DNA of 64,000 nt from an uncultured Prevotellaceae bacterium (lineage in GTDB: Bacteria; Bacteroidota; Bacteroidia; Bacteroidales; Bacteroidaceae): the NCBI GenBank assembly GCA_900315095.1, contig OMXS01000014.1:1-64000 (forward strand), read 5' to 3'. This document shows, piece after piece, positions 2,893 to 52,785 of the stretch. Each line of letters starts with the position of its first letter. Position 1 is the first letter of the stretch. The position numbers and the translations under genes are program-made. The notes under the pieces were generated by a model that saw only the letters and a list, made by a program, of their open reading frames with translations, searched no databases and was not told where the DNA came from.

Positions 2893-3003
2893 TACACGCG
2901 CATGAGATATACATCTGAGTTTCTCACTTGTATCTCCTGACACCCTCAGGAGTGTCTCCTGACATTGCCACATGCCACAACTGGTGTGCTAAAGTTGTGT
3001 TGT
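2893..3003. repeat. phased 22-bp degenerate repeat array, locus 1
   Basis: In the 415-base spacer between the divergent ppdK and rlmD, CTGA/CTGG anchors fall at 2915, 2937, 2959 and 2981, exactly 22 bases apart. The units are degenerate, sharing CTCCTGAC-like blocks and small palindromes such as AGATATACATCT. The phase and vocabulary match the arrays at 10.2, 23.3, 43.1 and 52.7 kb. Nothing else apart from the two promoters is seen in this spacer. Confidence 0.65.
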
Positions 3004-3027
3004 TTAGGAGAAAAAGTCACAAAAATA

Positions 3028-3058
3028 TTTGATTATTAAACATTTTTAATTATCTTTG
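3028..3058 (+). promoter_or_regulatory. promoter of rlmD
   Basis: TTTG at 3028-3031, 19 bases, TATCTTTG at 3051-3058: a full match to the Bacteroidota sigma-70 promoter form, 65 bases before the rlmD start. Confidence 0.75.
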
Positions 3059-3123
3059 CAAACAATAAGTGACGCAGGTTAATACTATTTGAGAAGCAAC
3101 CCTAATTAGCATTTAGCAATATC

Positions 3124-4596
3124 ATGTCTAGAAAGAAGAAACCTTTACCACTACTGGAAAACGTTACAATCGCAGACTGTGCTGCCGAAGGTAAAGCCTT
3201 GGCGCGTGTTGACGACTTGGTTGTATTCGTGCCTTTTTGTGTTCCAGGCGATGTGGTCGATATACAGCTAAGGAAGAAAAAGCACAGCTATGCGGAAGGA
3301 GAAGTGGTGCGATTCATAAAGAAAAGCGATGTAAGGCAAGAGCCTATGTGCCAGCACTTTGGAATATGTGGCGGATGTAAATGGCAGATACTGCCTTACT
3401 CGGAACAATTAAAGATGAAGCAGAAACAGGTGGTTGACCAGCTGCGCAGAATAGGGAAGATAGAGTTGCCGGAAATAAGCCCGATATTGGGAAGCAAGCA
3501 AACAAGAGAATACAGAAATAAACTGGAGTTCGGATGCTCAAACAAGAAATGGCGCACGCGCGAGGAATTTGCAAAGCTTAGCGAAGAGGAGCTCCAGGAG
3601 CAGGAGGGTGCTATCGGTTTCCATATTACTGGCGCTTTTGACAAGATTCTTCCTATAGAGAAATGTCACCTTATGCACCCTTTGCACAACGAGATACGCA
3701 ATTCCATTCGCGACTTCGCTTACTCCACGGGTATGACGTTCTTTGACCTTCGCAATCAACATGGATTGTTGCGCGACATAATGATAAGGAACTCTAACAC
3801 CGAGGAGTGGATGGTGCTGGTGCAGTTCCATTTTGACGAGCAAGGCGATGAGGAAAAGGCGATGGCGCTGATGCAGCATATTGCTGACACATTCCCTCAG
3901 ATTTCGTCATTACTATGGGTTGACAACCAAAAGTGCAACGACACATTTGGAGACCTCGAACTGAATCTTTACAAGGGTAATGACCACATATACGAGCTGA
4001 TGGAAGACCTGAAGTTCAAGGTTGGGCCAAAGAGTTTCTATCAGACAAATACCGAGCAGGCATACGAACTATATAAGGTGGCCCGCAACTTCGCATTTAT
4101 GGGGAGTGGGGCAGGGTCGGAGTCAGAACGTCCAGACATTCCTAAGCCTCTTGTCTATGACTTGTATACAGGTACAGGCACAATAGCCAATTTCGTGGCT
4201 CGCAAGGCAAGCAAGGTAATAGGCATCGAATATGTTCCAGAAGCCATTGAGGACGCAAAGGTGAACTCGCAAATCAACGGTATAGAGAACACTCTGTTCT
4301 TTGCTGGCGACATGAAGGACATCCTCACCGACGACTTCATACAGCAGCACGGGCGTCCAGATGTCATCATTACCGACCCTCCTCGTGCAGGCATGCATCC
4401 CGATGTGGTGCAAACCATATTGCGAGCAAGGCCAAAGCGCATCGTATATGTGAGTTGCAATCCTGCTACCCAGGCGCGCGACTTGGCAAGTCTCGATGTG
4501 GCATATCGGGTAGAGCGCGTGCAGCCCGTGGACATGTTCCCGCATACTCCACATGTTGAGAACGTGGTCCTGCTTACGGAAAAAGAATTAATTTGA
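3124..4596 (+). CDS. rlmD: 23S rRNA (uracil-C5)-methyltransferase, RlmD/TrmA family
   Basis: SAM-dependent enzyme that makes 5-methyluridine in RNA, most likely 23S rRNA. The 490 residues show an N-terminal TRAM RNA-binding domain (about 8-66), four cysteines for a [4Fe-4S] cluster (76, 82, 85 in MCQHFGICGGCKW and 179 in IEKCH), the SAM-binding motif LYTGTGTIANFV near 345, the DPPRAG motif, and the catalytic Cys445 in VYVSCNPATQARD. All key residues are present. It has its own promoter and is followed after 9 bases by the porin gene, so the two may be co-transcribed. The family is certain; the exact target base (U1939 or U747/U54-type) is not decided by sequence alone. Confidence 0.93.
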   Translation: MSRKKKPLPLLENVTIADCAAEGKALARVDDLVVFVPFCVPGDVVDIQLRKKKHSYAEGEVVRFIKKSDVRQEPMCQHFGICGGCKWQILPYSEQLKMKQKQVVDQLRRIGKIELPEISPILGSKQTREYRNKLEFGCSNKKWRTREEFAKLSEEELQEQEGAIGFHITGAFDKILPIEKCHLMHPLHNEIRNSIRDFAYSTGMTFFDLRNQHGLLRDIMIRNSNTEEWMVLVQFHFDEQGDEEKAMALMQHIADTFPQISSLLWVDNQKCNDTFGDLELNLYKGNDHIYELMEDLKFKVGPKSFYQTNTEQAYELYKVARNFAFMGSGAGSESERPDIPKPLVYDLYTGTGTIANFVARKASKVIGIEYVPEAIEDAKVNSQINGIENTLFFAGDMKDILTDDFIQQHGRPDVIITDPPRAGMHPDVVQTILRARPKRIVYVSCNPATQARDLASLDVAYRVERVQPVDMFPHTPHVENVVLLTEKELI

Positions 4597-4605
4597 AATT
4601 ATAAA

Positions 4606-5739
4606 ATGTTTAACCCACTAATGAACTACACTATGAAAATGAGATTATTAACTACCTGCTTGCTGGCTATGGCCGTGATGAGCATGAGTGCCCAAGAGCA
4701 GAAACCTAAGAAATGGTACGACAACATCAAGTTCAGCGGATACGGCATGCTGCAGTATCAGTATCAGGACAGGGATGAAAAAGAGACCAACACGTTCAAT
4801 CTGCGCTTGCTCCGTTTGATTCTCGACGGAAAGATTGGCGACTGGGATTGGCGAGCACAAATTCAGGGCACCAATGCAAAGGGTCCTGGCGAACCTACAG
4901 TTCAGTTGGTTGACCTCTATGCAGAATGGGTGAAGTATAAGGAGGCTCGTGTAAGAATTGGACAGTTTAAGCGTGCTTTCACATTTGAAAATCCTACCCA
5001 CCCAATCACTCAGGGATGGTATGCCTATGCAGACGTAATCAACCGACTCTCAGGTTTTGGCGACCGTGCAGGAGAGAAATCATCTGGCGGACGTGACATC
5101 GGTATCCAATTGCAAGGAGATGTACTCCCCAACAGTTCTGGCCGTGCCTTGCTCCACTATCAGATTGGCGTATATAATGGTGAGGGTATCAACCGTAGCG
5201 ATAAAGACAACCGCAAAGACATTATCGGAGGTATTTGGGTGATGCCTATCAAGGGCCTGCGCATCGGTGCCTTCGGATGGACAGGAAGTCATGGCGACAT
5301 GATTACAGGTACAACTACTGATGAATTTGGCGTGACTACTAACGTTACTGGTAGCGTTTCACTTCACCGCTACGCTCTCTCAGCTGAGTACGACAAGGAC
5401 GAATACACCTTCCGCGCTGAGTATCTGCACTCTCATGGTTGGGGAGCAACAGCCATTGGCAGCAATGTGATTGACTATTCAAAGGGTGACAAGGCCGACG
5501 GTTGGTATGTGTTTGGCATCGTTCCTGTTATTAAGTCAAAGTTGCATGCAAAGGCTCGTTACCAATGCTATCGTCAGTCAAAGGACATGGCTTCATCTAA
5601 GACGATGTATGAGATTGGTGCAAACTACTTCATCAACAAGAATATGGAGATTACGGCTGAGTATGCTCGCGTTAATGACCGCACTCTGAACAACCACAAC
5701 TACAACTTTGTTGATGTTGAGTTCGATTTCCGCTTCTAA
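4606..5739 (+). CDS. phosphate-selective porin O/P-like outer membrane protein
   Basis: Predicted outer membrane beta-barrel of the OprP/OprO-like group, 377 residues. After a signal peptide ending near SMSAQ the mature part begins KKWYDNIKFSGYGMLQYQYQ, followed by the family's conserved barrel segments (LRLLRLILDGKIGDWDWRAQIQ, VRIGQFKRAFTFENP) and alternating aromatic/polar strands to a C-terminal Phe (EFDFRF), typical for BAM-inserted barrels. The start is uncertain: 4606 is the first ATG after rlmD, but the ATG at 4633 gives the more classical signal peptide MKMRLLTTCLLAMAVMSMSAQ. Substrate unknown; phosphate or pyrophosphate would fit the neighbouring pyrophosphatase but this is guesswork. 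Confidence 0.8.
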   Translation: MFNPLMNYTMKMRLLTTCLLAMAVMSMSAQEQKPKKWYDNIKFSGYGMLQYQYQDRDEKETNTFNLRLLRLILDGKIGDWDWRAQIQGTNAKGPGEPTVQLVDLYAEWVKYKEARVRIGQFKRAFTFENPTHPITQGWYAYADVINRLSGFGDRAGEKSSGGRDIGIQLQGDVLPNSSGRALLHYQIGVYNGEGINRSDKDNRKDIIGGIWVMPIKGLRIGAFGWTGSHGDMITGTTTDEFGVTTNVTGSVSLHRYALSAEYDKDEYTFRAEYLHSHGWGATAIGSNVIDYSKGDKADGWYVFGIVPVIKSKLHAKARYQCYRQSKDMASSKTMYEIGANYFINKNMEITAEYARVNDRTLNNHNYNFVDVEFDFRF

Positions 5740-5832
5740 GACGTCTCCGGACTACTATGACATTTATTTCGATAATATCACAATAGAATATATTACCGGT
5801 TAGCAATATCAGTTTTTTTAAAGTACTAAACT

Positions 5833-8022
5833 ATGAATATTCCCGCAGTATTTTGGCTCGTGCCATTCGCATCGATAGTGGCACTCTGCATGGCCTGGTA
5901 CTTCTTCTCGCAAATGATGAAGGAGAGTGAAGGCACCCCTCGTATGGCAGAGATTGCCAGTCATGTTCGTAAAGGCGCTATGGCTTATCTTAAGCAGCAG
6001 TACAAGGTTGTGCTCTATGTGTTTATTGTGTTGGCAGTTATTTTTGCCTTTATGGCTTATGTGCTTCACGTTCAGAACCCTTGGGTGCCGTTTGCATTCC
6101 TTACGGGTGGATTCTTCTCTGGTTTGGCAGGATTCTTCGGAATGAAGACAGCCACCTATGCTTCGGCTCGTACCGCTAATGCTGCTCGCAAGAGTCTTGA
6201 CGGAGGCTTGAAAGTAGCGTTCCGCTCAGGTGCTGTTATGGGACTCACGGTGGTGGGACTTGGCTTGCTCGACATCGCCATTTGGTTTGTTGTGCTTAAC
6301 GGGCTTACCGATGAGTCGCTGATAGCGATTACCACAACTATGCTTACGTTCGGAATGGGTGCCTCAACACAGGCTTTGTTTGCGCGTGTTGGTGGTGGTA
6401 TCTATACTAAGGCGGCCGATGTTGGTGCCGATATCGTGGGCAAGGTTGAAGCAGATATTCCCGAGGACGATCCACGCAACCCTGCTACCATTGCCGACAA
6501 CGTTGGAGATAACGTTGGTGACGTGGCTGGTATGGGAGCCGACCTTTATGAGAGCTATTGCGGGTCGATTCTTTCTACTGCCGCCTTGGGTGCTGCTGCT
6601 TTCGCTATGTCGGGATTTGAGGTTCAGCTTAAGGCAGTCATAGCCCCAATGCTTATTGCTGCTGTTGGCGTGTTCCTTTCATTGCTGGGCATATTCCTTG
6701 TTAGGACAAAAGAGGGTGCTTCCATGCATGACCTGCTTAAATCGTTGTCGTTAGGAACTAATGTCTCTGCTGTGCTCATAGCAGTTGCCACATTCGCTAT
6801 CCTTTATCTGCTTGGCGTTGAAAACTGGTTAGGTCTTTCGTTCTCGGTAATCTCAGGACTTGCTGCAGGTGTTATTATCGGACAGGCTACAGAGTACTAC
6901 ACTTCTCACAGTTACAAGCCGACGCAGAAGATTTCGGAAGCAGGTCTCACAGGTTCTGCTACCGTTATTATTAAAGGTATAGGTACAGGAATGATTTCAA
7001 CATGCATACCTGTTATCACTATTGGTGTCGCTATTCTGATGAGTTACTTGTGTGCTAACGGTTTTGACTTGTCTATGTCTTCACAAAGTCTTGCTAATGG
7101 TCTTTATGGTGTTGGTATCGCAGCCGTAGGTATGCTCTCCACGCTGGGCATCACGCTTGCTACCGATGCATATGGTCCTATTGCCGACAATGCCGGCGGT
7201 AATGCAGAGATGAGTGAATTGGGCGAGGAAGTTCGTCATCGTACCGATGCGCTCGATGCTCTCGGCAACACCACAGCTGCTACAGGCAAGGGTTTCGCCA
7301 TTGGTTCTGCTGCACTTACCGCTCTTGCTCTGCTGGCTTCTTATATAGAGGAAATCAAGATAGCTATGGACCGCGCAGATGTCATGATGACAAACGTGAA
7401 AGGTGAAATCATAAATGCTGCTCAGGCAACCATTCCTGATTTCATGAACTACTTCCAGGTGAACCTTATGAACCCGAAAGTGCTTGTAGGTGCCTTTATT
7501 GGTGCTATGGCTGCGTTCTTGTTCTGTGGTCTTACTATGGAGGCTGTAGGTCGTGCTGCCCAGAAGATGGTTGAGGAAGTGCGTCGTCAGTTCCGTGAGA
7601 TTGCGGGTATCCTTGAAGGAAAGGCAACTCCAGATTATAGTTCTTGCGTTGAGATTTCCACCCGTGCTGCCCAGCATGAGATGATATTCCCTAGTATTTT
7701 GGCCATCATCATCCCTATCGTTGTTGGTTGCTTGCTTGGTGTTGCAGGTGTTCTTGGCTTGCTTGTAGGCGGTTTGTCTTGTGGCTTCACCTTGGCTGTA
7801 TTCATGGCCAATGCCGGTGGCGCATGGGATAACGCTAAGAAGAATGTCGAGGAAGGCAACTTCGGAGGCAAAGGCTCGTTTGCTCATAAAGCCACCATCG
7901 TTGGTGATACTGTTGGTGACCCGTTTAAGGATACAAGTGGTCCTTCGCTTAACATCCTTATAAAGCTGATGTCTATGGTAAGCATCGTAATGGCTGGACT
8001 CACAGTTGCCTGCATAATATAA
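5833..8022 (+). CDS. hppA: K+-dependent membrane-bound ion-pumping pyrophosphatase
   Basis: Integral inner-membrane enzyme that hydrolyses PPi and pumps Na+ and/or H+ outward. 729 residues with about 16 membrane helices. The PPi/Mg site is complete: DVGADIVGKVEADIPEDDPR near residue 196, then NPATIADNVGDNVGD, the second acidic loop DAYGPIADNAGGNAEMSE, and the C-terminal GDTVGDPFKDTSGPS. The motif GNTTAATGKGFAIGSAAL (about 478-495) has Ala where K+-independent enzymes have Lys, placing it in the K+-dependent class, which in anaerobes is usually Na+-pumping (family knowledge). It would recover energy from PPi made by ppdK and biosynthesis. No promoter was recognised in the 93-base gap upstream. 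Confidence 0.95.
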   Translation: MNIPAVFWLVPFASIVALCMAWYFFSQMMKESEGTPRMAEIASHVRKGAMAYLKQQYKVVLYVFIVLAVIFAFMAYVLHVQNPWVPFAFLTGGFFSGLAGFFGMKTATYASARTANAARKSLDGGLKVAFRSGAVMGLTVVGLGLLDIAIWFVVLNGLTDESLIAITTTMLTFGMGASTQALFARVGGGIYTKAADVGADIVGKVEADIPEDDPRNPATIADNVGDNVGDVAGMGADLYESYCGSILSTAALGAAAFAMSGFEVQLKAVIAPMLIAAVGVFLSLLGIFLVRTKEGASMHDLLKSLSLGTNVSAVLIAVATFAILYLLGVENWLGLSFSVISGLAAGVIIGQATEYYTSHSYKPTQKISEAGLTGSATVIIKGIGTGMISTCIPVITIGVAILMSYLCANGFDLSMSSQSLANGLYGVGIAAVGMLSTLGITLATDAYGPIADNAGGNAEMSELGEEVRHRTDALDALGNTTAATGKGFAIGSAALTALALLASYIEEIKIAMDRADVMMTNVKGEIINAAQATIPDFMNYFQVNLMNPKVLVGAFIGAMAAFLFCGLTMEAVGRAAQKMVEEVRRQFREIAGILEGKATPDYSSCVEISTRAAQHEMIFPSILAIIIPIVVGCLLGVAGVLGLLVGGLSCGFTLAVFMANAGGAWDNAKKNVEEGNFGGKGSFAHKATIVGDTVGDPFKDTSGPSLNILIKLMSMVSIVMAGLTVACII

Positions 8023-8035
8023 AAAAATGATAATA

Positions 8036-8067
8036 TTTGCATTTATAAATAATAAATGCTATATTTG
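8036..8067 (+). promoter_or_regulatory. promoter of the His-rich small gene
   Basis: TTTG at 8036-8039, 20 bases, TATATTTG at 8060-8067. This full consensus match between hppA and the 91-codon gene supports that small gene as real and separately transcribed. Confidence 0.75.
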
Positions 8068-8102
8068 CAGGCGAAAACGAAATAACATAATCAACAACTT
8101 AG

Positions 8103-8378
8103 ATGGATAATAAAGAAAAAGACATTGTGCAAGACTCTAAAACAGAGGAGCAACAACATCATCATAGCCATCATCACCATGAGCATCATCATGAACATCA
8201 CCATCATCATGAGCATCATGGAGGCAAGCATGTAGACGGCAGCGAACGCTTCAAGTTACATAACTTGTCAGCAGCTAAGCGTCGCAAGTTGATGGAAAAA
8301 TGGATTTTCAGACTTCTATGCATACTGGCGATTGCTGTTACCTTGCTATGCATTTATATCTATCATATTGATAATTAA
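8103..8378 (+). CDS. small histidine-rich protein with C-terminal membrane helix
   Basis: 91 residues, function unknown. Residues about 19-43 hold 17 histidines in runs separated by Glu and Ser (HHHSHHHHEHHHEHH and onward), followed by a short basic segment (SAAKRRKLMEKW) and one hydrophobic helix (about 69-87, IFRLLCILAIAVTLLCIYIY) ending 4 residues before the stop. There is no signal peptide. The layout is that of a tail-anchored protein with its His-rich part in the cytosol, where it could bind Zn, Ni, Co or Fe (inference). It has its own promoter and a strong terminator. A coding origin is supported by these signals rather than by homology I can name. Confidence 0.75.
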   Translation: MDNKEKDIVQDSKTEEQQHHHSHHHHEHHHEHHHHHEHHGGKHVDGSERFKLHNLSAAKRRKLMEKWIFRLLCILAIAVTLLCIYIYHIDN

Positions 8379-8402
8379 TTATGTTATTACGATATAATAA
8401 AA

Positions 8403-8437
8403 GGACTTGCAACGTAAGAAGTTGCAAGTCCCTTTTT
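8403..8437. terminator. bidirectional terminator between the His-rich gene and GH43
   Basis: Perfect 11-bp stem GGACTTGCAAC / GTTGCAAGTCC (8403-8413 and 8421-8431) with a 7-base loop, followed by CTTTTTATTT on the plus strand and by T-rich sequence on the minus strand. It serves the two convergent genes. Confidence 0.85.
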
Positions 8438-8450
8438 ATTTAGCACATTA

Positions 8451-10115: not shown

Positions 10116-10164
10116 TATTGTTAGTTTTTAGTAGTTCTGTTTTCATTTATATCGTTTCGAGTCC

Positions 10165-10258
10165 TAAAAGTATACCTCTGGCATCCTCAAAAGCCATCTC
10201 TGGCATCCTCAGAAGCCATCTCTGACCACCTCAAAGATATACCTTTGGCAACTCGTTG
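10165..10258. repeat. phased 22-bp degenerate repeat array, locus 2
   Basis: Units beginning CTCTGGCATCCTC or CTCTGACCACCTC start at 10176, 10198, 10220 and 10243: spacings 22, 22 and 23. The 23-base step belongs to the unit containing AAAGATATACCTTTG, the same rule seen at loci 3 and 5. The array lies directly upstream of GH43 and reaches the stop codon of the ATP-grasp gene. Confidence 0.8.
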
Positions 10259-10261
10259 GTT

Positions 10262-11341
10262 TCATATCACTTTGACAAAGGGATTCTCAATAGGAGAGAC
10301 ACGCATGAGATAGTTCACCTCGTGGTCGATATGCATCAGGCGATGAGGCGATGCTACTTCTGGCGTTAATGCCAAAGCGACATGTCCCATAGTTCTTCTG
10401 AGGTTAATCTCAACGCAAGGATGTAGCAGGAATCCATTGCTCTCGTCGCCAGATGCCACAATCATCATGTCCACTCCGAATGGTCCTTGGTAAATCCCCT
10501 TGAACCTGTTGGCGAAATAGCGGCATGCTCTTGTCTTTATCTCTTCTATGAGTTGCGGGGCGACGTATCGCGAAAGCATCTCCGCCTTTTCGTCCTCGTG
10601 GGCGAGAAGATTGCCGGTATAGGCTCCGTTGTGGGTCAAGAACAAAGACAGTCCTCGATAAGCAACGCTGCCGTCTGACATCGCCTCAAACTCCATTCCG
10701 AAGTCTTTCACCTTATTATAATATGGCTCCACCATCACTTCGCCCTGCTCGTGTATCACGTTTCTTATGAACCCTTTCACCGATGGTGTTATGCTACGCT
10801 CCACATAACGCACGCCTCTGCCGCTACTGCTCCAAGGAGACTTTATCACGATATGGTTTCCGCTGGCCACGGAATCCTTTATTAGGGAAATGTCGTTTGT
10901 GGAAAATGCCTCTCCACAAGTGCCTTCCAATCCTTCTCTCAAATGCTTTAGCGCACTCTTGGTTTGCACTCGGCTCGAAAGCAGGCGCAGATGCTCCATC
11001 ACATTGTCTGAAGGCATCAGTTCTGCAGGCACTCCATCATCAACAAGGCGAGTCTTTACGGCTCTGTCCCATCCCCAAGGCATGACGCAATCGAATCTAA
11101 TGCCGCTAAGGTCAGCATCGCTCACGAAGAGCACTTCAGCCTTCTTCTCCTTGCATTTGGCAGCGGCCTTAATGGCAAAAGCCACATCATCAACCAGAAC
11201 CATATCGCCGTCGGATGCCCACAACGCAGGAATCCAGCCAATGCTCATGCGCAATTCTTGTGCCGCATGTGGCGCCGTGAAGCGCTTCTTGTTACATGCT
11301 AGAGCGATGTCATGTTCAGGGTTAAATATGTGTAAATTCAT
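10262..11341 (-). CDS. uncharacterised ATP-grasp-like protein
   Basis: 359 residues, no function known to me. It opens with MNLHIFNPEHDIALACNKK, a start I associate with a hypothetical family conserved in Bacteroidota. Residues 163-180 (HIVIKSPWSSSGRGVRYV) look like the glycine-rich ATP-binding loop of ATP-grasp enzymes, and GPFGVDMMIV followed by HPCVEINLRRTMGH (about 289-325) looks like the catalytic metal-binding strand (Glu and Asn ligands) of that fold. This suggests an enzyme joining a carboxylate to an amine or thiol through an acylphosphate (inference). No signal peptide or membrane segment. It is divergent from the AAA ATPase gene. A minus-strand TAATTTTG at 11380-11373 may be its -7 box. 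Confidence 0.75.
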   Translation of the reverse strand: MNLHIFNPEHDIALACNKKRFTAPHAAQELRMSIGWIPALWASDGDMVLVDDVAFAIKAAAKCKEKKAEVLFVSDADLSGIRFDCVMPWGWDRAVKTRLVDDGVPAELMPSDNVMEHLRLLSSRVQTKSALKHLREGLEGTCGEAFSTNDISLIKDSVASGNHIVIKSPWSSSGRGVRYVERSITPSVKGFIRNVIHEQGEVMVEPYYNKVKDFGMEFEAMSDGSVAYRGLSLFLTHNGAYTGNLLAHEDEKAEMLSRYVAPQLIEEIKTRACRYFANRFKGIYQGPFGVDMMIVASGDESNGFLLHPCVEINLRRTMGHVALALTPEVASPHRLMHIDHEVNYLMRVSPIENPFVKVI

Positions 11342-11411
11342 TGTTTATGCCCAATATATTCATATCTGAGTGCAAAATTAATAAAAATTATCGAGTTTTT
11401 GCCAACTTGAC

Positions 11412-11442
11412 TTTGCAAATTAATAATAAATTAGTAACTTTG
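11412..11442 (+). promoter_or_regulatory. promoter of the AAA ATPase gene
   Basis: TTTG at 11412-11415, 19 bases, TAACTTTG at 11435-11442: full consensus match, 28 bases before the start codon. Confidence 0.75.
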
Positions 11443-23300: not shown

Positions 23301-23490
23301 CATCTTTCGCATCCTCAGAAGACATCTTTGACCTCCTCAGAAGACATCTTTGACCTCCTCAGAAGACATCTTTGACCTCCTCAGATGTATACCTTTGACC
23401 TCCTCAGATGTATACCTTTGGCATCGTCAAAAGGCATCTTTTACTTTTTCAAAGGACATCTCTTGCAATGCAAAAGGATACCTTTCACGT
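23301..23490. repeat. phased 22/23-bp degenerate repeat array, locus 3 (longest)
   Basis: Nine units, each with a CATCTTTG/TACCTTTG core, start at 23301, 23323, 23345, 23367, 23390, 23413, 23435, 23457 and 23479. Spacings are 22 except 23 where the preceding unit carries GATGTATACC. Four consecutive units share TTTGACCTCCTCAGA almost exactly; the outer ones are decayed. Many cores are small palindromes (AAGACATCTT). The array runs into the 3' end of the DUF4105 gene, whose stop codon (23441) is inside it. Confidence 0.9.
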
Positions 23491-24631
23491 TTCTTATCAG
23501 CAAAGATGATGCCAAAAGATACATTCCCTCGGCGTACGACTGGATAAATCCTCCTGCAAAGAAGAGCAGAATCAGCACCGTCCACATTATGTACTGGCAG
23601 TCTTTTGTGCCGTTTTTCTGTCTTTTAAGCAGCCTTCTTATGAAGAAAAGGGGTAGGGGATTGACCAGCAGAATCTGAAGGTTTACCCTAACCGTCGGGT
23701 GCTCTGAGAACAGCATCAGGAAGAGCACGATGCCCATTACCGATGCTCCCACCATCAGAAGTGCGTCGAAATATCTCAGGTTCTTTTTCTTTTTGATTTC
23801 GAAGGCGGTAAGAATGGCGGTTACGATGAGCAACTCCCATCCGCATTGAGTAGGCGTGAGCGGGAACTCCTCTTCAATAACCTGTGCCCGAGCGGGGAGA
23901 ATAACCATCGTCGTATCTACCAACGGGCGCTGGTTGTCGTTTCTTGTGGCATTCTCGAAGTCAATCATCAGGTTGTCCGGAAGAAACTGTCTTTGCTCTT
24001 GGGTTGTGGCATAGTCAGCGCCGACTCCAAGCAAGAGGTCATTTCCGAAGCGCGCCCAAGGATGGCCTTCGTTCTTATCATGAATAATCTCGCGGTAACT
24101 CTTGCCGTCGCGAGGTTGGTAAGTAACACCTCCCTTTATGTTGTTCACAAGAATATCTCGTGCTCTTGTGGTGCAGTTGTCATAGAAATAGTTGTATCTG
24201 TAGTATTTGTTCTCAGGCAGGTTGTTCACTCTTATCGCCTCGAAAATAATCATCTTCTCCTCCGGGGTGAGGTTAAGCACCTGCTGGGTTATGCTGCTTC
24301 CATAGTAGGCATACTCGGAAATAAAGTATTTGAAGGGGATTATGCCAATCTCATATTCGGCGATTCCGAAGACGAAACGCGGTATGAACAGAGGCTTGTT
24401 GAAAGAGAAAACTCCATAGTTGACGGCCACGTCAAGTCCCGCCCGCTGGTCACGCATTCTTATTGCCGTATGACCATAGAGGCTGTACACCTGCTGATGG
24501 GGCGAGCAGGTGAGCAAGCTGATTTCTAATGAGTCGGGATTCAGCCCTTCTTCTTGAGCGAATGAAAGTGTTGAACTCAGCATCATCATTGCCAAGAGAA
24601 ACGCCTTCAAAATGTTATTTCTATGTTTCAC
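23441..24631 (-). CDS. DUF4105 domain-containing membrane protein
   Basis: 396 residues. Signal peptide (MKHRNNILKAFLLAMMMLSSTLSFA), then a periplasmic DUF4105 domain, related to the Lnb N-terminal domain, with conserved TCSPHQQVYSLYGHTAIRM and the Cys/Asn motif YFYDNCTTRARD, followed by four or five membrane helices from about residue 262. The presence of His, Cys and Asn motifs suggests a thiol hydrolase-like site, but the role is unknown. The last residues (from about VKGILLHCKRCPLKK) are read from repeat array 3, so the native C-terminus has probably been altered or extended. Divergent from coaX. Confidence 0.85.
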   Translation of the reverse strand: MKHRNNILKAFLLAMMMLSSTLSFAQEEGLNPDSLEISLLTCSPHQQVYSLYGHTAIRMRDQRAGLDVAVNYGVFSFNKPLFIPRFVFGIAEYEIGIIPFKYFISEYAYYGSSITQQVLNLTPEEKMIIFEAIRVNNLPENKYYRYNYFYDNCTTRARDILVNNIKGGVTYQPRDGKSYREIIHDKNEGHPWARFGNDLLLGVGADYATTQEQRQFLPDNLMIDFENATRNDNQRPLVDTTMVILPARAQVIEEEFPLTPTQCGWELLIVTAILTAFEIKKKKNLRYFDALLMVGASVMGIVLFLMLFSEHPTVRVNLQILLVNPLPLFFIRRLLKRQKNGTKDCQYIMWTVLILLFFAGGFIQSYAEGMYLLASSLLIRNVKGILLHCKRCPLKK

Positions 24632-33729: not shown

Positions 33730-33743
33730 TATCTTTTCGTTTG

Positions 33744-33889
33744 TTACAAATGGTTTGTAATGTTGTTACAAACCGCTTGTAATGGTATTACAGATGGCTT
33801 GTAATTGTGTTACAAACGGCTTGTAATAGTATTCCAAAAATGTTGGAATAGCTTGTAAAAAGATTCCAGAGATTTCAAAATCTCTGGAA
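33744..33889. repeat. phased 22-bp array of palindromes, locus 4 (TTACAA..TTGTAA type)
   Basis: Five 17-base palindromes start exactly 22 bases apart at 33744, 33766, 33788, 33810 and 33832: TTACAAATGGTTTGTAA, TTACAAACCGCTTGTAA, TTACAGATGGCTTGTAA, TTACAAACGGCTTGTAA, TTCCAAAAATGTTGGAA. A further larger hairpin (TTCCAGAGATTT ... AAATCTCTGGAA, 33864-33889) breaks the phase and may terminate fmt or comM transcripts. The sequence differs from the other arrays but the pitch is the same. It fills the convergent comM/fmt spacer. Confidence 0.9.
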
Positions 33890-33917
33890 TGACTTTATAT
33901 AAAGGGATTTGAAGGGT

Positions 33918-43000: not shown

Positions 43001-43217
43001 GAGTGAGTATTGCCTTGTTTCCCACTTATGTCTTTTTGCTATGCCACTTGTGCTTCCTGAGGTTGTCACTTGTGCTTCCTGAGGTTGTCACTTGTGCCTT
43101 TTGACCACCTCACTTATATACATCTGACAGTCTCACTTATATACATTTGACCACCTCACTTGTGCCTCCTGACGGCATCACTTGTGGCATGTGACTTGCT
43201 CAGATGCATGGAAGCGC
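43001..43217. repeat. phased 22/23-bp degenerate repeat array, locus 5
   Basis: CACTT anchors at 43023, 43045, 43067, 43089, 43111, 43134, 43157 and 43179, then a decayed unit near 43201. Spacings: 22, 22, 22, 22, 23, 23, 22, 22. The two 23-base units are those with CACTTATATACAT. Shared blocks are CACTTGTGCTTCCTGAGG and TTTTGACCACCT. The array fills the whole 218-base spacer between two convergent genes, from stop codon to stop codon. Confidence 0.9.
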
Positions 43218-44287: not shown

Positions 44288-44311
44288 GAAGTGTGTGTAA
44301 TGATGATATGC

Positions 44312-45931: not shown

Positions 45932-46013
45932 TGTATTTTTTGATTAATTGTTTTTCTTTGTTTCGTTATGACGGCGTTACGTTATTCCGTTACAACGACA
46001 TGTTATGGTTTTA

Positions 46014-48227
46014 TTATTTCAACCACCTGTCTAACCAGTTGAAGAATGTGCGCTGCCAGAGTATTCCGTTCTGTGGTTTCAGCACCCAATGGTTCTCATC
46101 GGGGAAGATAAGCAGTTCGGCTGGGATACCGCGGAGGCGTGCTGCATTAAACGCTCCCATGCCTTGGTTGTAGTTGATGCGATAATCCTTCTCTCCATGA
46201 ATGCAGAGTATAGGCGTATCCCATTTATCTACAAACTTGTGAGGTGAGTTGTCGTATGTCTTCTTTGCATTTGCTGTCTGGTCTTTGTTCCAGAATGCAT
46301 CGTCATATTCCCAGTTTGAGAACCACACCTCTTCGGTATCTGTGTACATCGACTCAAGGTTGAAAGCGCCATCGTGGGCAATGAAACACTTGAAACGCTT
46401 GTCGTGATGACCTGCCAAATAGTAAACCGAGAAACCGCCGAATGATGCGCCAACCGCGCCAAGACGGTCTTTGTCAACGTATGGCAAGTTGTTGGCGGCG
46501 TCATCGATAGCTGTAAGATAGTCATCCATGCATTGTCCTGTCCAGTCACCTGATATTTGCTCACACCATTCGCTGCCAAATCCAGGAAGTCCGTGGCGGT
46601 TAGGTGCTACAACAACATATCCCTGAGAAGCCATAATCATAAAGTTCCAACGATAACTCCAGAACTGGCTAACGGGACTTTGTGGTCCTCCTTCACAGAA
46701 TAGTAATGTAGGATACTTCTTGTTCTCGTCAAAGTTAGGAGGCAGAATTACCCAATAGAGCATTTGCTTGCCATCAGTTGTGTTTACCCAACGCTGTTGT
46801 ACTTTTGGCTTTCCGAGTTGTGAAAGGATATGCTCATTCTCCTGAGTGATTTGTTTTATGTTTGAGGAAACCATTGGAAATGCATTATCGCTTTTCTTTG
46901 CTTTCCCAGGAGTAATCACGTAGAGGTCAGCGGGAGTCGTATAGGAATGACGTTCAGCGAGAATCTGCTTGCCGTTGTTCATCATTTGCAGGCTACCAAA
47001 GTCGGCCCAGTCAGAAGAAAGCTGTTTGATTTCACCCTTCCAGTTGATGGAGTATAAGTTTTCTGTAGCGTGCCATACTCCGATGAAATATATCATTGCA
47101 TCTTTGGTGTCGCTCCAGCAGAATTCATCAACGTTAGAGTCAAATGATTCGGTCATGTATTTCTTGCTTCCTGTCTCGAAGTCATATACACAAAGTCTTT
47201 GGCGGTCACTTTCGTAACCGTTGCGAGCCATTGACAACCAAGCAATATGCTTTCCGTCGGGAGAGAACTGCGGGTTCTGGTCGTATCCCGGGTTGTTCTT
47301 CATGTTCTCAGGTGCGTTGACACTCTGATACTTCATTGTCTTTGTGGCGTCTATCTTTGGCTCAACATAACCTTCAGTCTTACAAAGATTAGTTGTTTCG
47401 CGCGTACCTATATTATATAAATATATGTCGGTGTCGGTGGAAATCATATATTCCACACCCACTTTCTTTCTGCTTGTATAGGCAATGCACTTTGAGTCAG
47501 GACTCCAGTCGATTTGCTCGATACCTCCGAAAGGCTTAACCGGGCACTCGAATGGTTCGTCCTTCATGATGTCTATGCCTTCAGAAATCTTGCCGTTTGC
47601 CACATCTGCCAAGAAAGGATGGGGTATAGTTTCCACATATTCGTCCCAATGGCGATAGTTAAGGTCGGTAACCAGTCGTCCTGTTGCTTTCGGCAGGTCC
47701 TCAGGATTCTCCTTGATGCTTTCGTGGAAAGGTATTTGTTTCACAAGCACCACATGCTTTCCGTCGGGTGAGAACTTAAAAGCATCGATGCCAGTTTCAT
47801 CATTAGTCATTTGCTGGCGGTCGGTTCCGTCGGGCAACATGCTCCATATCTGACCACCTGTGATGAATGCTATTCGCTTTCCTCCCTCTATCCAAGCAGC
47901 ATCGGTTTCACTCTTGGCAGAAGCGGTGAGCAGCTTTTGACCAGAGCCATCAGCATTCATAATGTACAAAACATGGTGACTCTTGTTTTCCTTAACGCTA
48001 TAGTACGCCACGTTGTATACTATCTGCTTTCCGTCTGGCGATGAAGCATAGCCTCCTATGCGTCCCATAGCCCACAACGCCTCTGGTGTCATGCGGTCGC
48101 TTGCCAGTTTGATGTTGCTTTTAAGAATCGGTCGTGCCATCTCTTGTTGAGCATTAATCGTTGCTGCACTTGCTATTAGCATGGCGGCAGCCAAAGTCAG
48201 AGCCTTTTTCATATTATAGATTATCAT
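46014..48227 (-). CDS. S9-family prolyl oligopeptidase/dipeptidyl peptidase, exported
   Basis: Serine peptidase, probably periplasmic. 737 residues from the ATG at 48227, which overlaps the yidC stop (ATGA); the Met at 48212 (MKKALTLAAAMLIASAATINA) gives the neater signal peptide. The N-terminal two thirds form a seven-bladed propeller of WD40-like/TolB-type repeats (FSPDGKHVVLV, WSPDSKCIAY, FSPDGKHIAWLS). The alpha/beta hydrolase domain has the catalytic triad Ser595 (GAVGASFGGFSVY), Asp681 (HGEKDYRINYNQG) and His713 (FPDENHWVL). It is likely to cleave peptides with Pro or Ala at P1. Translational coupling to yidC is possible. Confidence 0.92.
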   Translation of the reverse strand: MIIYNMKKALTLAAAMLIASAATINAQQEMARPILKSNIKLASDRMTPEALWAMGRIGGYASSPDGKQIVYNVAYYSVKENKSHHVLYIMNADGSGQKLLTASAKSETDAAWIEGGKRIAFITGGQIWSMLPDGTDRQQMTNDETGIDAFKFSPDGKHVVLVKQIPFHESIKENPEDLPKATGRLVTDLNYRHWDEYVETIPHPFLADVANGKISEGIDIMKDEPFECPVKPFGGIEQIDWSPDSKCIAYTSRKKVGVEYMISTDTDIYLYNIGTRETTNLCKTEGYVEPKIDATKTMKYQSVNAPENMKNNPGYDQNPQFSPDGKHIAWLSMARNGYESDRQRLCVYDFETGSKKYMTESFDSNVDEFCWSDTKDAMIYFIGVWHATENLYSINWKGEIKQLSSDWADFGSLQMMNNGKQILAERHSYTTPADLYVITPGKAKKSDNAFPMVSSNIKQITQENEHILSQLGKPKVQQRWVNTTDGKQMLYWVILPPNFDENKKYPTLLFCEGGPQSPVSQFWSYRWNFMIMASQGYVVVAPNRHGLPGFGSEWCEQISGDWTGQCMDDYLTAIDDAANNLPYVDKDRLGAVGASFGGFSVYYLAGHHDKRFKCFIAHDGAFNLESMYTDTEEVWFSNWEYDDAFWNKDQTANAKKTYDNSPHKFVDKWDTPILCIHGEKDYRINYNQGMGAFNAARLRGIPAELLIFPDENHWVLKPQNGILWQRTFFNWLDRWLK

Positions 48228-50119
48228 TTCTTTTGCTGTTGTTCGCGCATGCGCCTCATCTCTTCAGCCTGCTTTTGCATCTGCTCTAAGCGGGCAGCAA
48301 ATCCGCTCTGTTTCTTCGGATTGTTCTTGTTCTCCTTATAGCGAGCCTCCAAAATCGCAAGAAGTTTTTCGTCATTGGTTGTCTTGCGCAATGTCCACAT
48401 GATGGCGGCACTAAAGAAGAGCGAGATGAAATAGTAGAAGTTAAGACCTGATGAATAGTCGTTGAACATGAAGAAGAACATTACCGGCATAAGGTACATC
48501 ATCCATTGCATCATCTTCATCTGCTCAGCCTGCTGGCCAACCATCTGGTCGCGCTGCTGGCGCATTGTCATCCATGAATAGAGAACGTTGGCAATACAGA
48601 AGAGAATACATGTGAGTGACAGGTGGTCTCCAATGAGCCAGAGATTCTTTCCCCATTCAATGATAGGGTCGTATGTAGAAAGGTCGTCAATCCAGAGGAA
48701 GCTCTCGCGACGCAATTGAATTGCGTTAGGCACGAAATTGAACATCGCAATCCAGATAGGCATTTGAATAAGCATAGGCAGACATCCGCTCAGAGGCGAC
48801 ACTCCATAACGAGAGTACATCTGCATCATAGCCTGTTGCTTCATCATCTGGTCCTCCGGTTTGTCGTACTGCTTTGTTGCCTCGTCGAGTTTCGGCTTCA
48901 GTACACGCATCTTTGCTGATGACATGTAGCTCTTCTTGACCATTGGGAACGTTATAACCTTAAGAAGCAGCGTTATAAGGATAAGCACGATGCCCATTGG
49001 AAGTCCCAGTTTGGTGAGCCAGTCGAAAACATAAAGCGTGAACCATCTGTTTATGATGCGGAAGAGAGGCCATCCGAGATATACCAAACGCTCAAGATCG
49101 AGGTCCTTGCCAAATGTGCTTTGCTTCTCTACAGCCTGCAAGAGACGGAAGTCGTTAGGACCGAAATAGAACTCAAGTTCTGTTGGTGTGGCACCCTTCG
49201 GGTCGAATGTGGTCTTTACTTTAGCACCATATTGCTTAAGATAGTTTGACCCTTTCTCTTGCGGAAGTGATGTCATGAGCGAGTTGTTGGCAAAACCGTC
49301 CTTTGAAATCATCACAGCTGAGAAGAACTGATTTTTGAAAGCCACCCAGTCGAGGGCCTCTTCTATCTTCTCGTCAGCATACTCCTTAGTTTCGTTAAGA
49401 TAGTCGGTGCTGCCGCCTTTTTCTTTATAGGTGAGTGTAGAGTAGCGGTTCTCGAATGTAAAACCTCTCTCTTGTTGTTTGCAACGCTCGTCCCATTGGA
49501 TGTCAACGCTGTTCATTGTCGGTGGGAAGAGTCCTTCCATACCCTTGGCAACAATTGACATGTGTAGCATATAGTCCTTTCCGAGCAGGTATTTCATTTC
49601 GAGTGTCTTGCCGTTTGCTGCTTGTGCGGTCAGCGTTACGGTAGTGTCTGTTTGCTCGGAAGGGGTGAAATACATGTCGGCGGTATTGATGTTAATGTCC
49701 TTTCCGGCAAGCATGAACTTCAGTTGCTGGTCGTTTTTATCGAAAAGAATGAGGTCCTTGTTGTTCTCTCGGTCCTCAAAGTCTTTGATGACGGCCTTGT
49801 TTACTGTTCCGCCCTTTGTTCCCAAGGTCAGTTCCACCTTTGAGTTCTTAAGAACAATAGGAGCATCTGTGCCGCTAAGTGCATTGTGGAATAGGGCAGA
49901 AGTGTCCTTCAAGGCTTCCTTTATCTTGTCGTTTTCTTTCTCTTTTTCCGACTTTGCCTTGTCAGCCAGTTCCTTTTCTGCCTTTTCTTTGTTCACCTGT
50001 GCTATTGAGTCCTGTATCATCTGCTGCCTTATCTGCTCCTCTGACGGGCGATTCCACCAGCTGAATCCGATGAACACAAGTGCTATGAGCACAAATCCAA
50101 TGATAGTTTTCTTGTCCAT
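48224..50119 (-). CDS. yidC: membrane protein insertase YidC
   Basis: Inserts proteins into the inner membrane, alone or with SecYEG. 631 residues from the ATG at 50119 (MDKKTIIGFVLIALVFIGFSWWNRP); the longer upstream frame runs through the promoter and is not coding. An N-terminal helix, a Lys/Glu-rich linker, the large periplasmic beta-sandwich (about 90-370), then the conserved five-helix core: TLYVFDWLTKLGLPMGIVLILITLLLKVITFPMVKKSYMSS, YGVSPLSGCLPMLIQMPIWIAMFNFVPNAIQLR, and FNDYSSGLNFYYFIS. The C-terminal tail is basic and Gln-rich (MRRMREQQQKK), which may contact ribosomes. Confidence 0.97.
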   Translation of the reverse strand: MDKKTIIGFVLIALVFIGFSWWNRPSEEQIRQQMIQDSIAQVNKEKAEKELADKAKSEKEKENDKIKEALKDTSALFHNALSGTDAPIVLKNSKVELTLGTKGGTVNKAVIKDFEDRENNKDLILFDKNDQQLKFMLAGKDININTADMYFTPSEQTDTTVTLTAQAANGKTLEMKYLLGKDYMLHMSIVAKGMEGLFPPTMNSVDIQWDERCKQQERGFTFENRYSTLTYKEKGGSTDYLNETKEYADEKIEEALDWVAFKNQFFSAVMISKDGFANNSLMTSLPQEKGSNYLKQYGAKVKTTFDPKGATPTELEFYFGPNDFRLLQAVEKQSTFGKDLDLERLVYLGWPLFRIINRWFTLYVFDWLTKLGLPMGIVLILITLLLKVITFPMVKKSYMSSAKMRVLKPKLDEATKQYDKPEDQMMKQQAMMQMYSRYGVSPLSGCLPMLIQMPIWIAMFNFVPNAIQLRRESFLWIDDLSTYDPIIEWGKNLWLIGDHLSLTCILFCIANVLYSWMTMRQQRDQMVGQQAEQMKMMQWMMYLMPVMFFFMFNDYSSGLNFYYFISLFFSAAIMWTLRKTTNDEKLLAILEARYKENKNNPKKQSGFAARLEQMQKQAEEMRRMREQQQKK

Positions 50120-50196
50120 TTCTTTATTTTGTTTTTTCTTTTTCGATATTATTAGTCGTTTACATTCAACAAAGTTGAATTTTGCAATACAAAGTG

Positions 50197-50227
50197 CAAA
50201 ATTACAAATTTTCTCTAACATGACAAA
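50197..50227 (-). promoter_or_regulatory. promoter of yidC
   Basis: Minus strand TTTG (50227-50224), 19 bases, TAATTTTG (50204-50197): full consensus, 77 bases before the yidC start at 50119. It excludes the earlier in-frame start codon. Confidence 0.75.
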
Positions 50228-50400
50228 ACTTAAACATATGTTTTGGCAAAATAATTTTCCATTGCCAGGCAAAGAGATAGTTGACAGCAACATATTTTGA
50301 CATGCTTAGCATGCCATTTACTTATATTTTCCATTTTATTTTCCTATTACAAAATATTATTTGTATCTTTGCAGGGTCATAAATTAAAAACATTGTGCAA

Positions 50401-51390
50401 ATGAAAACAAGGTATTCAATATTCCGGTATTTATTATTGTTCGCATTCTTTGTCTGCGGAAGTGTTGCGAATGCACAGTTGCCTAATGAGAAGTTTGGTA
50501 AGCCATCAAGTATGGAATGGGAATTTTCAGGTTGGGGAGATGCTGTTGGCGCTGACGCCATCGTCTTGTGCAAGACGATGAATGTGACTTATCAGCTTTT
50601 AGACCAAGTATCTAACTACAATCAGTCGGACTCTGAACTTGGCTCTGATAATATTACGGATTTCAGCAAGAATCAGATTGACGACAGCAGTATCCTTGTT
50701 AAATATGAGTTCAGGTTACGCACAAAGATATTGAAGCCAGAAGGCGCCAAGCATGCAAATATTGACATCGTTTACTTTAATATCGATGATAAAAGGATTA
50801 TCAGCGCAGATGAAATCACGGACATGAAAGTTCGGGTCTTCACCAAGAACGAGAAGGGAAAGGTGGAGAAAAGAAACGTAGATGTAACCTCATTTGAGAG
50901 TGAGCGTGTTGATGAAAACTACATGGTGATTCACGTGAACGTGCCTGATGTTCAGGCTGGAAGCATCATCGAATACCAGTATAACATCACGAGCTCCCGT
51001 CCGTCTTTCCTTTACGATTGGGTATTCCAGGAGTGCATACCAACGTTACATACTAAATGTGATATAGACATCCCTGCTATGTTGCAGTTCAATATGAATG
51101 CTCCTATCAACAAACTTATAAAGTCGAACGTTGTGGTGGGACAGCTGGCATATGACGTAAACAGGTCTGACTTGAAGCGAGCCAAGACTTGCTGGACCAA
51201 CCACTATACAATTGTTGGTGACTATATTCTTCCTGAAGGCATGCAGATGGGACGCAATCAGAATGGTGCTGGCGGCGAGAAGGAAGTGACGGCAGAGAAA
51301 ATTGCCAACTTCACAAGCAAGATAACCAATCCTAACGTCACGCTTCCTGCCTATATACCTGAAGGCAGTACACACCTGAAAATCAAATAA
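50401..51390 (+). CDS. DUF3857-type exported protein
   Basis: 329 residues. A signal peptide (MKTRYSIFRYLLLFAFFVCGSVANA) precedes a beta-rich domain resembling the DUF3857 N-terminal part of Bacteroidota transglutaminase-like proteins (AIVLCKTMNVTYQL, LVKYEFRLRTKILKPEGAKHANIDIVYFN, VIHVNVPDVQAGSIIEYQYNITSSRP). There is no transglutaminase Cys-His-Asp domain, so this looks like the domain alone. It starts at the ATG at 50401 rather than the GTG at 50395. A TATCTTTG -7 box lies at 50364-50371. The next gene begins 15 bases later, so the two are probably one operon. Confidence 0.78.
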   Translation: MKTRYSIFRYLLLFAFFVCGSVANAQLPNEKFGKPSSMEWEFSGWGDAVGADAIVLCKTMNVTYQLLDQVSNYNQSDSELGSDNITDFSKNQIDDSSILVKYEFRLRTKILKPEGAKHANIDIVYFNIDDKRIISADEITDMKVRVFTKNEKGKVEKRNVDVTSFESERVDENYMVIHVNVPDVQAGSIIEYQYNITSSRPSFLYDWVFQECIPTLHTKCDIDIPAMLQFNMNAPINKLIKSNVVVGQLAYDVNRSDLKRAKTCWTNHYTIVGDYILPEGMQMGRNQNGAGGEKEVTAEKIANFTSKITNPNVTLPAYIPEGSTHLKIK

Positions 51391-51404
51391 TTGCTAGTGC
51401 TTTT

Positions 51405-52652
51405 ATGAACAAATTGTTTATCTCTTCTTTGCTTGCTTTGCTGCCTTGCGTTTCGTTTGGAGCGCCGTCTGACTCGTTAATAGTCAAGCAGTACATGGAT
51501 TCCTTATACAAGTGTAAGGAGGTAATTGACAATACCGATTATCCAGATGTTGATGCAAGATATTACCGACTCTTTGCGCCGCCAACGTTCTATCATTCTC
51601 CTGCAAGTAAGGGATTGAGTTTCAGAGGCGCGTCACTCAGCGGCGACGAGGTAGACAATGCTATCGACAAGGCTCTGCTCTCGATGTATCTTAGGCGTCC
51701 AGATTTGCTTGAAAATAGCGAGAACCATCTGACGGCTTCTGGCGGAGTAGACGGGAACCTCGTACAACCTATAAAGCAAGATGTGGTGTTGGCCGACAAG
51801 GTTGACCCCATTATAGAAGACCCTGTGACTGAACCGGTTGAAGTGTTGGTTACAAAACCTAACTTCTGGGTGTTCAAGGGCGACTATTCGTTGCAGTTCC
51901 TTCAGAACTACATTTCAAGCAACTGGTATAAGGGTGGTGAGAGTAACTACTCTATGCTTGGTATTGTGACGATGGAAGCCAATTACAACAACAAGCAGAA
52001 GGTGAAGTGGGACAACAAGCTTGAGCTGAAAATGGGCTTCATGACATCGCGAAGTGACTCTCTGCACAGGTTTAAGACATCAGAAGACCTCATCCGTCTT
52101 ACGTCAAAACTTGGTTTGCAGGCCTCAAAGAGGTGGTACTATACATTGCAGATGATTGCTGAAACGCAGTTCACGAAGGGTTACAAGAGCAACGACCCGA
52201 TGGTTTATAGCGACTTCCTCTCGCCTTTCAAGCTCAACCTCTCTCTCGGTATGGCTTATAACGTGGAGTGGTTTAAGAAGAAGCTGACGGGAAATATCAA
52301 CATTTCTCCTATCGCCTACAACTTCCGATATGTTGACCGCGTGGCGCTTGCACCATATTTTGGTTTAAAGGAAGGCCGTCATGTGCTTCACGACATCGGT
52401 TCTTCGTTGACGGCAGACCTCACTTGGCAAATAGCGGAGAACATAAAATGGAAGACTCGTCTCTATGCCTTCACGTCATACAAACGTGCCGAAATAGAGT
52501 GGGAGAACACGTTCTCGTTCATGTTCAACAAGTATATCTCGGCCAATCTCTTTGTTTATCCACGCTTCGACGATGGCGTTACGCGTGACGGCCATCATGG
52601 ATACTTCCAGCTGAAGGAATACTTCTCGCTCGGATTTAATTATTCCTTCTAG
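51405..52652 (+). CDS. DUF3078 outer membrane beta-barrel protein
   Basis: 415 residues with a signal peptide (MNKLFISSLLALLPCVSFG). The conserved DUF3078 barrel begins at about residue 150 (NFWVFKGDYSLQFLQNYISSNWYKGGESNYS) and continues with regular strands (KLELKMGFMTSR, LGLQASKRWYYTLQMIAETQF) to a C-terminal Phe (FSLGFNYSF). The linker just before it reads DPVTEPVEVLVTK, encoded around 51825-51843 by GACTGAACCGGTTGAAGT, which resembles protein segments made when REP-like palindromic elements insert into genes. Role unknown; co-transcribed with the DUF3857 gene. Confidence 0.85.
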   Translation: MNKLFISSLLALLPCVSFGAPSDSLIVKQYMDSLYKCKEVIDNTDYPDVDARYYRLFAPPTFYHSPASKGLSFRGASLSGDEVDNAIDKALLSMYLRRPDLLENSENHLTASGGVDGNLVQPIKQDVVLADKVDPIIEDPVTEPVEVLVTKPNFWVFKGDYSLQFLQNYISSNWYKGGESNYSMLGIVTMEANYNNKQKVKWDNKLELKMGFMTSRSDSLHRFKTSEDLIRLTSKLGLQASKRWYYTLQMIAETQFTKGYKSNDPMVYSDFLSPFKLNLSLGMAYNVEWFKKKLTGNINISPIAYNFRYVDRVALAPYFGLKEGRHVLHDIGSSLTADLTWQIAENIKWKTRLYAFTSYKRAEIEWENTFSFMFNKYISANLFVYPRFDDGVTRDGHHGYFQLKEYFSLGFNYSF

Positions 52653-52659
52653 TCTCACT

Positions 52660-52785
52660 TGTGTCCTTTGGCATTCTCAGAGATGCCCTTTTGCATTGTC
52701 AAAGATGTCCTTTCGCATTGCCAAAAGGCATCTCTTGGAACATGAAAGATATACCTTTGAGAATTCGGCGATATGCTTTTCGCTA
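52660..52785. repeat. phased 22-bp degenerate repeat array, locus 6
   Basis: Anchors GCATT/GGAAC at 52671, 52693, 52715 and 52737 are each 22 bases apart, with another unit at about 52759. Units read CCTTTGGCATTCTCAGAGA, CCTTTTGCATTGTCAAAGA, CCTTTCGCATTGCCAAAAGG. Same vocabulary (CCTTTG, TCAAAGAT, ATATACC) as loci 2 and 3. It begins 8 bases after the DUF3078 stop codon and ends at the DUF1573 terminator. Confidence 0.85.

Follow-up and report, generated by a model that had tools for sequence, protein, structure and literature searches.

Intergenic arrays of palindromic 22-bp units in Prevotella that keep their phase while their words turn over

The window, as we call the whole stretch analyzed here, comprises 64,000 nucleotides of contig OMXS01000014.1 (G000:C19:1-64000) from an uncultured Prevotellaceae bacterium, whose parent assembly, G000, is a 3.24-Mb draft in 58 contigs. 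The host can be placed in Prevotella because its YifB shares 92% identity with the Prevotella sp. UBA4330 protein and because the 80 related loci that were kept are labeled nearly all as Prevotella, Prevotellaceae or genera split from Prevotella. The original prediction for this DNA was that six spacers between genes are filled with degenerate tandem units in a 22-base phase. This holds for the spacers at 10.2, 23.3, 33.7, 43.1 and 52.7 kb, and the spacer at 2.9 kb is marginal. The six arrays, to which no strand is assigned, are as follows.

2902..2990, no strand: weak array of about 2 clear units with degenerate edge units, in the spacer upstream of rlmD
10154..10262, no strand: array of about 4-5 units of the CTCAAAAGCCATCTCTGGCAT type, from Tandem Repeats Finder (TRF) and the lag-22 scan
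23301..23497, no strand: array of about 6 almost identical units CATCTTTGACCTCCTCAGAAGA, with degenerate units at the edges, from TRF and the scan
33742..33855, no strand: array of about 5 units TTACAA-N5-TTGTAA, from TRF
43030..43205, no strand: array of about 8 units of the CACTTGTGCTTCCTGAGGTTGT type with a one-base phase slip, from TRF at periods 22 and 23
52655..52775, no strand: array of about 5-6 units, from TRF and self-match lag analysis

TRF reports period 22 at the five clear loci, with an additional period-23 row at 43.1 kb. Among self-match lags, 22 ranks first at 10.2, 23.3, 43.1 and 52.7 kb and second, behind 44, at 33.7 kb. In the 2.9-kb spacer, TRF finds 1.9 copies (2923-2964), lag 22 ranks third and the strict scan misses the array. 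The 10.2-kb array lies directly downstream of the stop of a minus-strand gene (10262-11341), and the 23.3-kb array, which TRF places at 23301-23441 (6.3 copies) and a looser threshold extends to 23497, adjoins the stop of lnb (23441-24631, minus strand). Two arrays are found between convergent genes, yifB (plus) and fmt (minus) at 33.7 kb and the DUF3078 (plus) and DUF1573 (minus) genes at 52.7 kb, and each is followed by a terminator-like hairpin (approximately 33861-33905 and 52796-52830, respectively). The left and right arms of the 43.1-kb units derive from different palindromes, and at 52.7 kb an asymmetric core flips its orientation within the array with the phase retained. A vocabulary of four words had been thought common to five of the loci. 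This was overstated, in that no word is exact in more than two of the six spacers: on the plus strand, CATCTTTGACCTCC occurs in one (23.3 kb), CTCAGAAG in two (10.2 and 23.3 kb), CACTTGTG in two (43.1 and 52.7 kb) and ATATACC in two (10.2 and 52.7 kb), and none of the four is exact on that strand in the 2.9- and 33.7-kb spacers.

The same phase recurs throughout the sampled genome. We scanned 1,443,254 bases of G000 in stretches that include the window (44% of the 3.24 Mb), with an array called strictly where the lag-22 self-match reached 36 in 60. This sample contains 46 intergenic lag-22 arrays, or about one per 31 kb at the strict threshold, whereas no other lag between 15 and 43 exceeds 17. 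The runner-up in that range is lag 16, with 17 places made of octamer repeats; lag 23 gives 10 arrays and lag 44 gives 19. Among spacers of at least 100 bp, 45 of 484 contain a lag-22 array; 20 rounds of first-order Markov resampling gave 0.1 on average and never more than 1. The predicted excess at period 22 elsewhere in the genome is thus present, mainly in spacers, and resampled spacers, which had been named in advance as the test, do not reproduce the phase. The statement that arrays never lie within a gene is nearly, but not strictly, true, as six lag-22 matches fall inside open frames. The roughly 10-kb spacing seen in the window was not borne out. Over 744 kb, the coefficient of variation of array spacing is 1.03-1.11, no more regular than random spacers (0.94-0.97); placement along the genome is random, the 10-kb rhythm is accidental, and a regularly spaced chromosome-organising site is not supported.

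The arrays have a two-fold symmetry that was not part of the original prediction, and neither were the differences in words between species or the dispersal and turnover of those words. In spacers, distances from one palindrome center (dyad) to another peak at 11, 22, 33, 44, 55 and 66 bp, with counts of 25, 24, 13, 10, 9 and 7, compared with mostly 1-8 at other distances; palindrome centers in open frames show no such peak. Symmetry was assessed on 52 arrays from G000 (own arrays), 22 from a sister genome, G101, and 27 or 32, depending on the test, from other Prevotella, with arrays of at least 85% A+T or containing N excluded from profile and pairing counts. The G101 stretches were picked partly by matching an array query, which makes array density in G101 uninformative. 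Compared with column-permuted arrays, dyad symmetry reaches z values of 13.4 (52 own), 16.9 (22 G101) and 11.8 (32 other Prevotella). Taken singly, 26 own, 19 G101 and 20 other Prevotella arrays are dyadic at p<=0.05, and about half of the own arrays are therefore not dyad-symmetric individually. Because dyad axes fall every 11 bp, an array can be described as 11-bp half-units strung together in alternating orientation.

When the half-units are aligned by expectation maximization, G000 yields the pattern YnWnTnR, and G101 independently yields the same pattern in reverse reading. The strongest column is T in 90%, and a purine stands two bases further on in 96%; no constant terminal tag is seen in the unit profiles, in which only YnWnTnR recurs. 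The column-permuted null also breaks dyads, so dyad-keeping shuffles were used for this pattern, and it persisted: the total information is 3.94 bits in own arrays and at most 2.08 in 60 such shuffles, 3.45 versus 2.48 bits in G101, and 2.76 versus 2.16 bits in other Prevotella. The G000 matrix fits 12 of 22 G101 arrays at p<=0.05; its fit to 45 of 52 own arrays is circular, these being the training set, and only G101 and other Prevotella count. Stop codons were considered as the meaning of the TNR triplet and rejected, since TGA, TAA and TAG account for 43% of 450 half-units, with a further 29% being TTG or TCG.

Arrays of this kind are spread through the genus. In twenty 20-kb stretches from the genus, the scan finds 11 intergenic lag-22 arrays and at most 2 at other lags from 15 to 40, and the 80 Prevotellaceae loci hold 11, with 4 at the next lag (the comparison of relatives' spacers shows 10 of these 80). 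Outside the genus, 20 stretches representing further families within the order, class and phylum contain no intergenic lag-22 array. Arrays of other Prevotella have the same phase and dyad and different words. For instance, one G000 word class occurs 35 times in G000, 37 times in G101, 26 times in G102 and not at all in five other Prevotella. Within G000, exact 24-mers are common to 30 pairs of arrays at different loci, compared with 0.05 in control spacers.

Comparison with G101, whose genes are about 87% identical to those of G000, indicates how the arrays change. By eye, all six orthologous spacers of G101 hold arrays; the strict scan lists five, without the 23.3-kb one, where the array is about 45 bp shorter in G101. 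The 2.9-kb ortholog contains a clear, longer array. At 10.2 kb, the unit number is equal, the alignment is gapless and the arms are altered in parallel, with three units having changed the same letters (CTCTGGCA to CTTTCGCA). The 33.7-kb ortholog has 5-6 units in which stems are kept and loops differ, followed by the same terminator-like hairpin, and the 52.7-kb arrays align over 121 bases with no gap at 80% identity. The array at 43.1 kb is present in G101 with wholly different words and with inverted copies of arms, and whole-word replacement is also seen at 12,022 of L049. Lengths were compared for 11 own arrays with an ortholog on the fetched G101 stretches. The differences are 0, 0, -22 (L043), +22 (L045) and -66 (L049) in five cases, near multiples of 22 in two (-45 and -111), and in three, additional sequence, runs of N or extra units make the ortholog longer (+108, +117 and +144). 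Identity is 67% in arrays (634 aligned bases) and 85% in other spacers (2,953 bp). Three arrays (100, 99 and 121 bp) are gapless at 69-80% identity, as against 23 gap openings in the 2,953 bp of other spacers. In the 7 alignable pairs (of the remaining four, three were unalignable and one unchanged), the purine column remains purine in 50 of 51 half-units, compared with class retention in 95 of 112 for the two neighboring columns (Fisher p 0.013, a value that treats parallel changes as independent).

On an RNA reading, each unit would fold into a stem-loop within the 3' part of an mRNA, which it would protect or regulate. The units resemble 17-nt hairpins with 5-nt linkers, the arrays often begin some tens of bases from a stop codon, and at 33.7 and 52.7 kb the array stands between the stop codon and the terminator-like hairpin. 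Arrays also favor spacers between convergent genes, which hold 18 of the 47 assigned own arrays and make up 75 of 368 spacers (gene-context counts exclude arrays without two flanking open frames, namely 5 of 52 own, 3 of 22 G101 and 7 of 27 others). An initial count of compensatory change within units gave 85 versus 46 (23 versus 37 on the other axis) in a register that had itself been selected for pairing; a neutral register abolished the excess. In that register, arms of one unit show no closer match than arms taken from different units (z of -0.17, -0.34 and 0.05, and about 1.3 in a second within-unit test). G-U and A-C mismatches on the sense strand are similar in number (76/54, 16/19 and 17/28; 109 versus 101 in total), and Rfam gives no match at gathering thresholds within the window. 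Terminators lie beyond the array in 15 cases, before it in 16 and inside it in 6, with none found in 57; they occur on either side about equally often, which gives a mixed picture for a fixed position in the 3' untranslated region. Given the lack of within-unit covariation and of G-U bias and the mixed terminator position, RNA hairpins appear unlikely. Still less probable is a family of repetitive extragenic palindromes (REP) or bacterial interspersed mosaic elements (BIME) moved by a Y1 transposase (REP-associated tyrosine transposase, RAYT), or a miniature inverted-repeat transposable element (MITE) like BrickBuilt, an element of Porphyromonas gingivalis. Such elements would account for arrays that are palindromic, intergenic, dispersed and clustered, with words common to several loci, and G000 does carry a RAYT-like gene (G000:C26, 61.4 kb). 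However, the palindrome beside this gene is a different one that ends in GTAG, and the 20-kb stretch that contains the gene yielded no 22-bp array, so a RAYT/REP origin was rejected; Prevotella G003 has an array (L160) and no NF047646 match. All-against-all blastn of the 104 flanks of the 52 own arrays returned two short pairs (28 and 19 bp) and no common leader, tail or terminal repeat, which argues against the decayed mobile repeats, in the MITE sense, that had been offered as an option. One array queried per phage and plasmid collection had no match, and an origin from these was set aside. Loss of the hairpin nuclease SbcCD was likewise rejected as the cause: sbcD is over the family cut-off in 21 of 101 Prevotella genomes and in 8 of 16 other Bacteroidales and is absent from G000, but two of four sampled sbcD-bearing Prevotella, G114 and G165, have dyadic 22-bp arrays (G174 has a low-complexity run only and G128 no array). 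With RNA, classical mobile elements and SbcCD loss disfavored, a feature at the DNA level remains.

We tentatively prefer, short of even confidence, the reading that the arrays are a lattice of half-sites for a putative dimeric, cooperatively binding protein, copied in 22-bp units. In this scenario, half-units of 11 bp in alternating orientation would create a two-fold axis every 11 bp and a direct repeat of 22 bp. Underwound DNA, as in the cell, has a helical turn close to 11 bp, and the protein would be bound cooperatively along the array at about one half-site per helical turn. It may tolerate many words provided that they repeat, in phase, a loose half-site, which in this clade is YnWnTnR. 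Whole 22-bp units are gained and lost and words are copied between loci, with point changes frequent and frame-breaking insertions or deletions rare. The fixed 11-bp axis, the common half-unit, the retention of the purine and the scarcity of gaps favor such a lattice, and arrays are scarce in divergent spacers (4 of 47 assigned own arrays versus 119 of 495 spacers). Any role might lie in insulating or organising the ends of transcription units. The earlier suggestion that a cooperative binder would meet its cores along a single face of the helix agrees with the 11-bp dyads and the half-unit pattern, but no binding protein was identified, none having been sought systematically. Several further observations count against a lattice. 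Own arrays share words by copying and are not independent witnesses of the half-unit pattern. Words as diverse as TTACAA, ACAAAGTTAATAAC, CTTTCGC and CACTTGTG occur within one genome, which would demand great tolerance of a single binder. Of 27 other-Prevotella arrays, 12 fit the G000 matrix at p<=0.05, 3 of these 12 being from near relatives, and the matrix fails entirely on several distant arrays. One of the 11 length differences (-43, at L199 4051) is off any multiple of 22, and its ortholog has no array. Finally, the arrays change faster than other spacers, unlike a tightly selected site. A broader version, in which axes 11 bp apart between genes are read genus-wide by shape, phase and a loose YnWnTnR contact, is possible but more doubtful. 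If it is true, words swap wholesale while the lattice and often its host spacer persist, and this would be a class of chromosomal protein sites in which phase, not sequence, is conserved.

Almost as likely as the protein lattice is a functionless, self-propagating palindromic minisatellite, in which fold-back template switching and unequal pairing would copy arms and add or drop 22-bp units in unselected spacers that tolerate them. The speed of change, the parallel change of all units at 10.2 kb and the unit-sized steps in length at L043, L045 and L049 favor it, and the inverted arm copies in the 43.1-kb spacer of G101, the exact 24-mers common to many array pairs, and arms that match array-wide rather than unit by unit are in keeping with it. 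It leaves unexplained why the step is 22 in every sampled Prevotella and in none outside the genus, why unrelated words have a common pattern, and why frame-breaking gaps are scarce. The version that depends on SbcCD loss is ruled out by the arrays of sbcD-bearing genomes. Slippage-generated filler, another early suggestion, fails by itself to predict the dyad, the fixed period across species and the half-unit pattern, and its palindrome-driven form survives. The two processes may also act together, with copying making the repeat grow and a binder filtering the result.

In either case, the arrays can be described as intergenic palindromic minisatellites that are unusual in keeping their phase while their words turn over, and the evidence points to an undescribed family of DNA repeats rather than ordinary filler. 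The literature consulted, of which subscription journals were mostly out of reach, contains no account of 22-bp arrays in Prevotella. Iterons and parS/parC-type arrays consist of phased half-sites or dyads about one to two helical turns apart that are bound cooperatively, at one locus and with one sequence. The Prevotella arrays have phased sites too, but at dozens of loci and with many words. The arrays are not clustered regularly interspaced short palindromic repeats (CRISPR), since their units are contiguous and degenerate, not identical repeats with unique spacers of constant length. The nearest kind is BrickBuilt, described as a 23-nt minisatellite within a MITE with 19 dispersed copies in P. 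gingivalis; earlier 23- and 22-nt tandem repeats in strain W83 are mentioned there without locations (PMC4596501). According to that text, BrickBuilt belongs to the same order (Bacteroidales) and has imperfect direct repeats of nearly equal length that are exclusively intergenic and are dispersed, with unit numbers that vary between strains, predicted stem-loops and dyad symmetry (PMC4596501). However, it has a period of 23, one repeat sequence and, in most copies, a leader and tail with small terminal inverted repeats (PMC4596501). The Prevotella arrays have a period of 22 (in G000, 46 arrays at lag 22 versus 10 at lag 23), many words and no shared flanks. Membership in BrickBuilt was thus rejected on period, single sequence and leader or tail, the intergenic position being common to both. 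REP and BIME are described as short palindromic intergenic repeats in many copies, sometimes clustered, with GTAG and CGTC families (PMC3733652). The Prevotella arrays differ in having no terminal GTAG or CGTC tag and in the turnover of their words. To our knowledge, REPs have no rigid 22-bp phase.

If a protein keeps the phase, then Prevotella, a dominant genus of the gut, rumen and mouth, has an undescribed chromosome-wide binding system, for which the arrays could serve as ready bait to find the protein. If a mutational process keeps it, a minisatellite with a fixed step and two-fold symmetry has been maintained genus-wide despite differing sequences, and the mechanism of palindrome-driven repeat growth becomes testable. 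Either reading would account for a recurrent class of spacers that current annotation leaves blank.

Other repeats were observed in the same genomes. A long imperfect palindrome with a GTAG-like end lies on one side of the RAYT-like gene (L192:1200-1350, in G000:C26 at approximately 61.4 kb), and similar sequence lies beside heptamer arrays at L021 and L022; this is a candidate REP family separate from the 22-bp arrays. At L199:4051-4170, an array of the ACAAAGTTAATAAC class sits within an inverted repeat (CAAAACCGC...GCGGTTTG), like an array in a hairpin loop, and the orthologous spacer in G101 has neither array nor inverted repeat. Heptamer and octamer microsatellites (lags 14, 16, 28 and 35), of many words, occur in other spacers, for instance at L021:18764-18885, L022:8778-8895, L093:8-130 and L016:19117-19207. 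They are tandem and intergenic like the 22-bp arrays but have periods of 7, 8 and their multiples, simple words and weaker dyad pairing (0.43-0.53 at lags 16, 28 and 35, versus 0.60 at lag 22). Finally, a very A+T-rich dispersed palindrome of the TATATTATAATATATA type, perhaps a small MITE, has similar flanks at at least five G000 loci (L025:18210-18294, L037:15457-15546, L041:1394-1504, L058:3720-3808 and L011:294-396).

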